A stretch of 27,006 nt of DNA from a virus: positions 1-27,006 of IMG/VR virus record IMGVR_UViG_3300025282_000196. One strand, written 5' to 3'. Below are positions 1,497 through 5,431 of this stretch, piece after piece. The notes below the pieces were generated by a model. That model saw nothing but the letters and a program-made list of their open reading frames with translations. It ran no database searches and was not told where the DNA came from. Position 1 is the first letter of the stretch. Every line of letters starts with the position of its first letter. The translations under genes were made by a program, and so were the position numbers.

Positions 1497-1998
1497 CGTG
1501 ACTCCTTTCTTTTAAACCACTAACAAATGGTTTTTTTACTAGTTTAACTCCAGGAATCTTATTCCCTTCTTTTAACTCTTTCAATATTCTCTTTTTATCC
1601 AATCTTTCTTCTTGAACCAGGATAAAATATTCTTTTGGTATTATACTTTCATCTTCAACAAGTACAGCACCACTTGAATTCCTTACCTTTATTGGATTGA
1701 ATATAGAATGTTTAGGAACACTGTTTAAAGATTCATGTGTATCTATGACAAGACCTTTAATCTGTTCATTATCACGCTGAATAATATCCAGTATAACCTT
1801 GCATTTGCTGATATGATTTTTAACCATTCCAATCTTTTTGTTATTATCAGTATACAACCAATAAATACCATCTTCTTTTTCAAATAGCTCAAGAAAAAGG
1901 TCTTGAAGCTGAATTGCCCTTTCTTCTGGACTTTTCATATCAAGACCCATTTGAAGAGTCATTATGTCTGTTGATATTTCATGCATCTTTCTTTTCAT
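1489..1998 (-). CDS. Siphovirus Gp157-family protein
   Basis: The C-terminal half matches the Gp157 pattern: a beta-like segment (FNPIKVRNSSGAVLVED, about 100-116), then SIIPKEYF, a lysine-rich LDKKRILKELKEGNKIPG segment and KLVKKPF near the end. Gp157 proteins usually also have a long N-terminal coiled coil; here that part (about residues 15-95) is shorter and less regular. The family is found beside phage recombinases and replication genes and was first linked to a phage-resistance phenotype in streptococcal phage; its biochemical role is unsettled. Start ATG overlaps the primase-helicase stop (ATGA), with GGGAG seven bases upstream. A second Met at codon 5 is an alternative start. Confidence 0.7.
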   Translation of the reverse strand: MKRKMHEISTDIMTLQMGLDMKSPEERAIQLQDLFLELFEKEDGIYWLYTDNNKKIGMVKNHISKCKVILDIIQRDNEQIKGLVIDTHESLNSVPKHSIFNPIKVRNSSGAVLVEDESIIPKEYFILVQEERLDKKRILKELKEGNKIPGVKLVKKPFVSGLKERSHDE

Positions 1999-3722
1999 AT
2001 GATTCTCCCATTTTTTCTTTGATCGACATCAAGCCTGCAGTTAAGTCTTTCTTGTTCTCTATTCTTTAAAGTAATGAGTTCAAGATGTTCTATCACACCT
2101 TCACTGCTTCTAATTGGCTTTAATGCCAGTATTTTGTTAGCATTATAGGATATTCTAAACGATCCTGATGGACTTGCTATATCCACTCCACTCTTAAAAG
2201 CTTCTTTGGATAATTCCCATATTCCTATAACAATGCAGTTTAAATCTTTAGAAAGATTCATTATACTTTCAGAAATATCTTTATCTTTTGATATTTCATC
2301 TCTGAATCTTGATTTCATTAAACCACAATGATCTATAAAGATTACTTCTGGATTGAAGTTGATTACATCAAGCTTCTTCTTGATTTCCCATGGAAAACAT
2401 GGTTCAAAATCAAACTTGATATGGTTCATGTTAGGAATACCATTTTTACCAGTTCTATAATGATTCTTTAAAGTTTCTTGATTCCAACCATTATGAATCA
2501 TTGATATTCTTTCAATAACCTGCTTTCTTGACATTTCAAATTCCATGAAATATGATCGTTTCTTAAAAGCAAGCAACCAATTTAGTATCAGCATTGATTT
2601 CATTGATTCTGGAGGAGCAGTTAGTAACATTGTTTCTCCTGGATATATAGGAAAATGCTGATCATAAATCGCACCTATATCCAAAGGAACTTGATTACTT
2701 GAGTAAAACTTTATAAGCTCTTGTTCAAGATCACTTACATCATAGTTACTAATAGACTTCTTGGCTTTGTATAGTTTGCATTCAGGAGAACACATTCTAT
2801 CTTTTACTTCAGAATGACATCCGAAATTATATCCTTCACCACTATTAGCATTGTATACTGAATGCATAATCTTTTCCATTTCACTTACAGTAAATGGATT
2901 ATCAGGTGAAGATATTTTATTTCTCCAGTATTCCATAAATATCATTACAGCATCTTCTGGAAATCTGATTCTTAAATGAGAACCAAGAGTTAATGCTGCT
3001 TTATGTCTAAATCCATAAGGAACATTTTCCATCATTCTTTGAATACAGATATAATCATTAGATATAGATGTTCTACCTTGTGATACAAATTTTGCTTTTG
3101 GTAAAGATATAGTTACATCAAATACAGGATCTGTTTCCAGTTCCTCGAAATTAAAACTGTCTCTTGGTTTAGCAGCATTTATATCTAACCATTGTTCATC
3201 AACTTCATTTATTTCAAATCTTTTAATTGGAATTTTCCAGTATCCTGAACTTATCTTTAAGGTATTTGGAATTCTGATTAATCTCACTCTATCTATAACA
3301 AGTGGATCAGCATAATCATAAAAACCTTTATTCTTTAAGACATGTTTAACCTTTAAATGCAGGTCATTACATGGTTCCCACTTAAAAGCAGAATTAGATA
3401 TATGTATATGAAATCCTTTTTCTCCAGAGAAATAGACTTGTGATGGAGTATCTTCCAGTAATTCTAACAATGCGAATGTTAGATCTTTCGCCTGTTTTAA
3501 ATTCGCTCCATCAACATCGAATATAAATTCATCAGACATGTACAACTTTCCTCTGTATCCAGATAAAGTCTTCTTATTTTTAACATATTCAGCTACTTCT
3601 TCATCATAATCCCATAAGGACATGAATGTATCTGAAGATATGTTATAAAATGAGGATATCCGACTTGGAGGAAAGAAATGATGACGATTGGTAAGCGAGA
3701 ATGCATACTCTTTTAGTATCAT
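1995..3722 (-). CDS. AEP-type primase fused to DnaB-like replicative helicase
   Basis: A 575-residue two-part replication protein. The N-terminal part has archaeo-eukaryotic primase (AEP) motifs: DVD at 69-71 (metal binding), SGEKGFHIHIS at 99-109, and VIDRVRLIRIPN at 142-153. A middle segment has C302-H303, C311 and C315, a probable metal or Fe-S site. The C-terminal part follows the RecA/DnaB core: P-loop position APPESMKS at 369-376, YFMEFEMS at 391-398 (like the DnaB FSLEMS element), Walker B VIFIDH at 460-465, and a C-terminal ITLKNREQ strand. The P-loop lacks both usual glycines. Predicted role: primer synthesis and unwinding at the phage fork. It starts by ATGA overlap with the upstream gene. 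No DNA polymerase is in the window. Confidence 0.85.
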   Translation of the reverse strand: MILKEYAFSLTNRHHFFPPSRISSFYNISSDTFMSLWDYDEEVAEYVKNKKTLSGYRGKLYMSDEFIFDVDGANLKQAKDLTFALLELLEDTPSQVYFSGEKGFHIHISNSAFKWEPCNDLHLKVKHVLKNKGFYDYADPLVIDRVRLIRIPNTLKISSGYWKIPIKRFEINEVDEQWLDINAAKPRDSFNFEELETDPVFDVTISLPKAKFVSQGRTSISNDYICIQRMMENVPYGFRHKAALTLGSHLRIRFPEDAVMIFMEYWRNKISSPDNPFTVSEMEKIMHSVYNANSGEGYNFGCHSEVKDRMCSPECKLYKAKKSISNYDVSDLEQELIKFYSSNQVPLDIGAIYDQHFPIYPGETMLLTAPPESMKSMLILNWLLAFKKRSYFMEFEMSRKQVIERISMIHNGWNQETLKNHYRTGKNGIPNMNHIKFDFEPCFPWEIKKKLDVINFNPEVIFIDHCGLMKSRFRDEISKDKDISESIMNLSKDLNCIVIGIWELSKEAFKSGVDIASPSGSFRISYNANKILALKPIRSSEGVIEHLELITLKNREQERLNCRLDVDQRKNGRII

Positions 3723-4053: not shown

Positions 4054-4614
4054 CTAGAATGGTACTTTGTCTGTTGGAGGGTCTGTTATTGTACTAGCAA
4101 CAGTCTCTATAGAACTTACACTTTCTCCATCTCTAGATTTCCATGAATTAAGACTTCTTTCTGCACGAGTCTTCCAATAGGAAACATCTTTTTCTGTATA
4201 CAACAGATTACCTGTTTCCGTTACAACAGGGGCAGGTTCACGCCATATACGAGCATATTCACCATCTTCTGTTTGTTCTCTATAGAATAAGACATTGATT
4301 GTCATTCCTTCGAGATTGGTAGGATCATCATCATATGTTATGATTGGTTGTCCAGAGCCATTATCAATAACTTCCTGTATACCAGCATTAGAAAACCTGA
4401 ACCAATTAGAAATTCTAAATTCTTCCTTGGTGGTTTTGTTAACTGTTTCATATACACGAGCATTCATATTACCTGGATATTCTTCAAACCAGATATCTAT
4501 GAACTTGTTACTGTTATAATGATCATACTTTGCATTTTTGATCGTTAGCTCTTTCCAGCCAGCTTCATAATCAGCACTATTACCAGAACCTACTGTTAAT
4601 GTTCTAATTGCCAT
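4054..4614 (-). CDS. probable single-stranded DNA-binding protein
   Basis: The 186-residue protein starts MAIRTLTVGSG and has a beta-rich body of about 120 residues (YEAGWKELTIKNAKYD, NKFIDIWFEE, EEFRISNWFRF, GMTINVLFYRE). It ends in a low-complexity tail that finishes DKVPF. An acidic or proline-containing tail ending in -PF is the protein-interaction tip of many SSBs. The gene directly follows a Sak4-type recombinase and overlaps it by 11 bases, and phage SSBs are often paired with Sak4. OB-fold membership is inferred from these three signs; the body sequence alone does not prove it. GGAG before the start lies inside the upstream coding region. Confidence 0.6.
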   Translation of the reverse strand: MAIRTLTVGSGNSADYEAGWKELTIKNAKYDHYNSNKFIDIWFEEYPGNMNARVYETVNKTTKEEFRISNWFRFSNAGIQEVIDNGSGQPIITYDDDPTNLEGMTINVLFYREQTEDGEYARIWREPAPVVTETGNLLYTEKDVSYWKTRAERSLNSWKSRDGESVSSIETVASTITDPPTDKVPF

Positions 4615-5365
4615 TTGTTACTCCTTTATTGATTAATGTAGCTAAACTCCTTGTTTTTCCAGTACCTGGACTACCAACAACTAAGATCCTTACATTATCG
4701 AATCCTTTTTCTTTAGCAGCAGCAATTACAGGTTGAAAATCCTGAAGCATATCAGCTGGCAAAAGATCAGTTCTATCTTTGGCATGTTCATATACTTCTG
4801 AATGTTTGGTCCTCCACATGTAATCTTCTGATTGACCATTTTTCTTTGTATAGGTATACAATACAAAATCAAACCATTTACTTATGTCTTCTTTTGTACT
4901 ACCATCTATATATGGTTTAATCTTAGTTCTACCATCTTCAAGAATTGAAGTTTTACTATGACATGTGGCAATAAGAATACCAGGTACTTTGGTAATAAAC
5001 TCAAGTAAAGTATCAAGAGTATTCTTTAGTTTACCCCATGAATTCAATTTCATTACTCCAGTTTTATCAACCAATGATCTTTGAAACTTCTTTGCCAATT
5101 CAGAAAATGAATCAATGATTAATGCATCCACTTCAACACCATTCTTTAAGACGGTTTGTTCTTGGACTTCTTTTATGACAAGATCATCAGAGATTTTCTT
5201 ATCAACTTCTATCCTTTGGGTAGTATATAATGAAGTTATGATATTTCTGAAATCAACAAATTGAGCTGGTTTTAGGACAGGGCAGTTAAACATTTCTTGA
5301 ATTTCTGCTTCACCACCTAATGTATGAGATCCATGTTCTGTATCGAACATTAAGATTTTGTTCAT
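4604..5365 (-). CDS. Sak4-type RecA-like recombinase, circularly permuted
   Basis: All core elements of a Sak4/RecA-like phage ATPase are present, but in rotated order. The protein opens with the strand that normally follows the P-loop (ILMFDTEHG, 4-12). It continues with Walker B (ALIIDSFSEL, 81-90), the sensor strand (GILIATCHS, 129-137), WFDFVLYTYT (164-173) and the MWRT...HAKDRTDLLP element (183-203). Only then comes the first strand and a perfect Walker A (ILVVGSPGTGKT, 227-238), 15 residues from the C-terminus. The ATG at 5365 has a strong AGAGGAG site, and no P-loop is encoded upstream. Sak4 proteins are ATP-dependent annealing/recombination proteins working with phage SSB; the next gene is SSB-like. 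Family call is firm; activity of the permuted form is inferred. Confidence 0.8.
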   Translation of the reverse strand: MNKILMFDTEHGSHTLGGEAEIQEMFNCPVLKPAQFVDFRNIITSLYTTQRIEVDKKISDDLVIKEVQEQTVLKNGVEVDALIIDSFSELAKKFQRSLVDKTGVMKLNSWGKLKNTLDTLLEFITKVPGILIATCHSKTSILEDGRTKIKPYIDGSTKEDISKWFDFVLYTYTKKNGQSEDYMWRTKHSEVYEHAKDRTDLLPADMLQDFQPVIAAAKEKGFDNVRILVVGSPGTGKTRSLATLINKGVTNGN

Positions 5366-5431
5366 TTATTTCTCCTCTTTCTGTTATTGCGGAATAATAG
5401 CCTTATCTTGACTATAAATTTACAGTTTCTC

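Follow-up and report, generated by a model that had tools for sequence, protein, structure and literature searches.

Does a phage recombinase of the Sak4/RecA type occur in nature with its chain circularly permuted? This question was raised by the window analysed here, a 27,006-nucleotide linear fragment of metagenomic origin (IMG/VR virus record IMGVR_UViG_3300025282_000196), in which a minus-strand ORF of 253 codons (5365-4604) opens with ATG and carries its P-loop at the wrong end. An earlier note, made from the letters alone, had read this ORF as a permuted Sak4-like protein with every Sak4 element present, and its ORF, strand and motif positions proved correct: Walker A ILVVGSPGTGKT lies at residues 227-238, at the C-terminus and after both the Walker B strand ALIIDSFSEL (81-90) and AKDR (195-198, within HAKDR, 194-198). 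Walker A, Walker B and the C-terminal K-x-R are all three present and invariant in our family alignment A1, as are G231, P233, G234, G236, K237 and T238, and GxPGxGKT at the C-terminus is nearly invariant among relatives. Whereas standard Sak4 proteins have the P-loop near their N-terminus, this protein has a C-terminal P-loop, a new linker and new ends, and its N-terminus MNKILMFDTEHG corresponds to the strand found in standard order just past the P-loop helix. The coding-strand DNA upstream, GAGGAGAAATAAATG, holds the strong Shine-Dalgarno sequence that the note had described, in the layout GAGGAG-AAA-TAA-ATG, and since the in-frame TAA immediately precedes the ATG, an in-frame P-loop upstream is impossible. 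Coordinates are collected in the table below.

Features of the putative permuted gene, its neighbours and a standard-order comparator (window positions unless a locus is named)
Feature	Position	Strand	Basis or remark
Putative circularly permuted Sak4-like RecA-fold ATPase, 253 aa	4604..5365	(-)	Profile matches, relatives, predicted structure
Shine-Dalgarno (GAGGAG) and in-frame TAA directly 5' of ATG	5366..5380	(-)	Sequence reading
Walker B strand and DSFSEL motif, residues 81-92	5090..5125	(-)	D85, S88, E89 and L90 invariant
AKDR, residues 195-198	4772..4783	(-)	Invariant in 50 relatives; matched to K229/R231 of Sak4-52A
Linker/helix, residues 199-224, from ancestral C-terminus to ancestral N-terminus	4694..4771	(-)	Helix 210-219; Q208 invariant
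Moved P-loop strand with Walker A, residues 227-238	4652..4687	(-)	High pLDDT across strand 225-231
Walker A helix followed by a variable tail that forms the new C-terminus	4607..4651	(-)	Tail length differs by up to ~60 aa among relatives; pLDDT below 50 at 248-253
SSB-like OB-fold protein (186 aa) whose acidic tail ends in DKVPF	4054..4614	(-)	PHROG and structure matches; 11-nt overlap with the permuted gene
Primase-like/DnaB-like replicative helicase, same module	1995..3722	(-)	Profile matches
Standard-order AAA_24-like phage ATPase	L265:9715-10620; also L255	(-)	P-loop very similar to C-terminus of permuted family

Profile searches placed the N-terminus where the note had put it, at the strand after the P-loop helix. 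Residues 2-199 matched Pfam AAA_24 from profile position 23 to 195 (E-value 1e-16; 61.8 bits against a cut-off of 27), and residues 2-218 matched the best-scoring family, PHROG 124 'Sak4-like ssDNA annealing protein', from profile position 64 (E-value 2e-25); both matches begin beyond the P-loop of the profile, the P-loop part being absent from the N-terminus. Judged at the level of sequence, the agreement of motifs and profiles in this gene is far beyond what chance would be expected to give. Like the Sak4 proteins of HK620, 52A, Seurat and Siara (PHROG 124, AAA_24), the window protein appears to comprise a RecA core only, with Walker A, Walker B and the trans K-x-R, and it shares with Sak4 a size of ~225-260 residues and the frequently adjoining ssb gene. 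Its identity to standard Sak4 proteins is ~20-28% (~26% to that of Seurat). In the Sak4-52A complex, one protomer binds ATPγS through K41, T42 and Y216, and its neighbour contributes K229, R231 and H232 (PMC11846896). K41 and T42 of the 52A protein lie within GKT, and K229, R231 and H232 within TKIRHS; the apparent counterparts in the window protein are K237/T238 for K41/T42 and K196/R198 for K229/R231, the equivalence of TKIRHS and HAKDRT being drawn from position and the shared K-x-R rather than from a strong alignment. Since the counterparts of Walker A, Walker B and K-x-R are kept, the catalytic parts would all be present and the order of the chain alone would differ. The 52A protein (PDB 8rc5), in standard chain order, has in addition an N-terminal extension before the P-loop that the window protein lacks.

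The neighbourhood of the gene is also that of a sak4 gene. An SSB-like gene came next after the permuted gene in all 133 loci compared (some being the same contig twice), encoding 171-205 residues, usually with an acidic C-terminal end, at an overlap or a gap of up to ~25 nt. Several of these neighbours matched the SSB families PHROG 378 and 743 (best E-value 1.5e-5), and the predicted fold of the window's SSB-like protein, strand-rich with a C-terminal helix, had as its top PDB match PrgE of pCF10 (probability 1.0), an OB-fold ssDNA-binding protein. The family had no convincing Pfam match and its PHROG matches were weak; it looks like an undescribed SSB family. An ssb gene adjoins ~80% of known sak4 genes, and in HK620 the phage SSB stimulates Sak4 (PMC5928155). 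Farther along lie Gp157 and DUF932 genes and the helicase gene, whose product combines a primase-like N-terminal part (PHROG 16345) with a DnaB-like helicase C-terminal part. On the upstream side, locus L110 (3320-4917) has a ThiF/E1-like gene (PF00899) and a Prok-JAB-like gene (just below the Pfam cut-off) directly before the permuted gene, a pair that possibly forms a ubiquitin-like system. Many loci have ORFs of 216-230 residues in this position, and these genes of similar size may be the same as the L110 pair; the gene upstream of the window's permuted gene is a different one.

A permuted fold that is real could nevertheless belong to some other ssDNA-linked replisome ATPase, e.g., a helicase loader or regulator, that is no longer a recombinase or annealase. 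The low identity to tested Sak4 proteins would fit such a role, as would a gene lying in a replication module with an SSB and a primase/DnaB-like helicase. However, the best family is the Sak4 PHROG, the trans K-x-R is kept, the linkage to an SSB gene is total in the manner of Sak4, and the window proteins scanned included no other recognisable recombinase, so that we regard a non-recombinase function as unlikely.

We predicted the structure of the window protein with AlphaFold2 from 50 family members, and the model was confident (mean pLDDT 90.3, pTM 0.88), with the P-loop strand (225-231) in blocks of mean pLDDT 93-96 and values below 50 at residues 248-253 only. With 253 residues, none is left in the model for a further domain, leaving a predicted RecA core without a C-terminal RecA domain. 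The top PDB match by Foldseek, which aligns in chain order only, was a Sak4, that of Staphylococcus phage 52A (8rc5; E-value 6e-3, TM 0.40-0.45); so low an in-order TM is expected for a permutation and is no proof of one. Phage RecA-like proteins in BFVD reached a TM of ~0.6, and one BFVD entry, the unnamed uncultured-virus protein A0A516LUR7, matched in the same order over its whole length (TM 0.90, 42% identity, 245 columns). Because the match covers the full chain, A0A516LUR7 evidently belongs to the same permuted family, of which a member is thus already in public databases; we found no report of its permutation.

Being a monomer prediction only, this model would also be compatible with a domain-swapped assembly, in which each protomer inserts its C-terminal P-loop strand and helix into the RecA core of its neighbour and the change of order serves polymerisation rather than a closed monomer. 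The Walker A block does sit on a linker of ~26 residues, the C-terminal tail is flexible, and RecA-family ATPases form polymers in which ATP lies at the interface. Yet the monomer model is confident precisely over the P-loop strand, and the linker is compact and conserved, for which reasons we give the swapped arrangement only a slim chance.

The note had also claimed that joining the C-terminal block to the N-terminus recreates the canonical order, and moving this block to the front in silico (de-permutation) bore this out. Two AAA_24 pieces became one continuous match over positions 2-195 of 195, with a rise from 61.8 to 77.0 bits, and the PHROG 124 score rose from 91 to 105-106 bits. By hhalign, the match to the Sak4 of phage Seurat improved from an E-value of 2.5e-7 over 147 columns in native order to 1.4e-11 over 205 columns that included the P-loop; the Sak4 of phage Siara was matched at 3.3e-9, and that of HK620 aligned to the permuted family at the P-loop only. 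In a search of 50,697 cultured-phage records, the family consensus in native order found 37 weak records (best E-value 7e-4), none covered over at least 80%, versus 150 records at a stricter cut-off for the de-permuted consensus (best E-value 1e-6), 85 of them covered over at least 80% and many annotated as Sak4, ATPase or RecA-like recombinase. HMMER searches with order-swapped profiles of 15 sequences gave modest gains, with a slight loss for one protein, and searches of PDB sequences with native and de-permuted profiles returned P-loop noise only. These comparisons point to standard-order Sak4 as the parent family of the permuted protein.

The de-permuted junction also occurs in natural form. 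In the standard-order proteins of L265 and L255 it reads KILMLGDPGSGKTGSLASLVKAGYNLRIMDFDNG, the first part resembling the window C-terminus RILVVGSPGTGKTRSLATLINKG and the second the window N-terminus NKILMFDTEHG. Standard-order AAA_24-like ATPases were also found in Vibrio phage VS-ABTNL-3 and Desulfofustis phage LS06, whose capsid proteins are distantly similar. This natural junction bears on a two-piece origin, in which the original P-loop of an AAA_24 protein disappeared and an unrelated one was added afterwards at the C-terminus. P-loops are short and common, and the C-terminus alone found its best single-piece PDB sequence matches among varied ATPases; but the L265 and L255 proteins match the block locally at 55-58% and run straight on into a strand like the window N-terminus, and in 16 of 18 long records (38-62 kb) an AAA_24 match to positions 20-195 was followed downstream in the same open frame by a second match to positions 2-25, so that the first 25 positions of this very profile were recovered from the C-terminus. 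An origin in two unrelated pieces is accordingly very improbable.

The relatives leave little room for an accident of assembly. An initial IMG/VR scan gave 76 loci, nearly all with complete ORFs in permuted order, and later scans, run with an alignment, with a DNA pattern spanning KDR to GxPGxGKT and with a divergent member as query, reached down to 36% identity. Over all IMG/VR loci, spread across many metagenomes, there were 231 family ORFs representing 102 distinct sequences with 36-94% identity to the window protein. We scored order by the position of the P-loop relative to the KWFDFV motif, both motifs being required; in every one of the 226 scorable ORFs (copies included) the P-loop came after KWFDFV and never before, i.e., 226 were permuted and none standard. 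The five unscorable ORFs comprised three without a P-loop motif, one without either motif and one short piece with the P-loop only, and several of them end at a contig edge; in L083 a variant P-loop, GKAGTGKT, keeps the C-terminal location. A mixed-alignment scan aimed at close standard-order relatives returned loci with permuted ORFs only, and no second, standard Sak4 or second AAA_24 gene was found in the 18 long records. The proteins of L025 and L027 have a longer tail beyond the P-loop (~305-314 residues in all), with a near-terminal AYLRGETNNI motif in both.

Purifying selection acts on the relocated block much as it does elsewhere in the gene, with a dN/dS of ~0.1-0.25 for the C-terminal linker/P-loop block; by Nei-Gojobori counts between the window and L005, pN was 0.107 and pS 0.539 in this block against 0.148 and 0.540 in residues 1-198. 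Since the counts in the block resemble those in the rest of the gene, the block is evidently translated and constrained. An assembly error, a chimeric contig or half of a standard-order gene, for which one might point to the metagenomic source and the linear fragment, can be ruled out, as ~100 distinct phage sequences from many samples share the same N-terminus, ends and order in complete ORFs with the moved block under purifying selection.

The ORF very probably encodes a complete, single-chain, circularly permuted protein of the Sak4 family that would carry out ATP-dependent ssDNA annealing with its co-encoded SSB. In this protein the old C-terminus, past the AKDR strand, would be joined through a helical linker of ~26 residues to the old N-terminus at the P-loop strand, which would sit in the protein's own core, and the new ends would fall in the loop that leads from the Walker A helix to strand β2. 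With Walker A (K237/T238), Walker B (D85) and the trans K-x-R (K196/R198) kept, the usual pocket would bind and hydrolyse ATP, and the next protomer of a filament would contact the bound nucleotide as in Sak4-52A. Together with its cognate SSB the protein would bind ssDNA in an ATP-dependent manner and anneal complementary strands in phage replication, recombination and repair. One uniform breakpoint and the absence of a standard-order member suggest a single old permutation event, perhaps through tandem gene duplication and subsequent loss of the outer halves. A tree of permuted and standard proteins was uninformative on origin, since its branches were very long and HK620 was misplaced.

Natural circular permutation of P-loop NTPases is known from the GTPases YlqF/RbgA, RsgA/YjeQ and YqeH, so the principle is not new; these, however, are TRAFAC proteins of ribosome assembly with another breakpoint and not RecA-class recombinases. 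To our knowledge RecA-family recombinases otherwise all have the same chain order, whatever the organism. The open-access literature yielded no report of permutation in Sak4, RecA or Rad51, and the earlier note knew of no permuted phage recombinase. Relatives of the window protein were not found in GTDB species genomes or PLSDB plasmids, the protein itself found none in INPHARED, and no permuted relative occurred among the 50,697 cultured-phage records, collections that may omit near relatives. A RecA-class recombinase permuted in this way throughout a broad phage lineage thus appears to be new, and we think it likely that a natural permutation of the RecA/Rad51 class has become fixed in a widespread uncultured phage lineage, with K-x-R brought to ~32 residues from the P-loop and new flexible ends beside the ATP pocket.

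One practical consequence is that searches with standard-order profiles give such proteins scores that are too low: for the native consensus no cultured phage was matched along most of the sequence, versus 85 records once it was de-permuted. A conserved permutant would mean that the RecA fold and its inter-subunit ATP site tolerate a transfer of the ends to the loop that connects the Walker A helix with β2. The family would offer a ready-made system for asking which chain connections filament assembly needs, and it could yield annealing proteins whose termini lie free close to the ATP site. If the permutation is true, it may alter filament polymerisation or regulation relative to standard Sak4.
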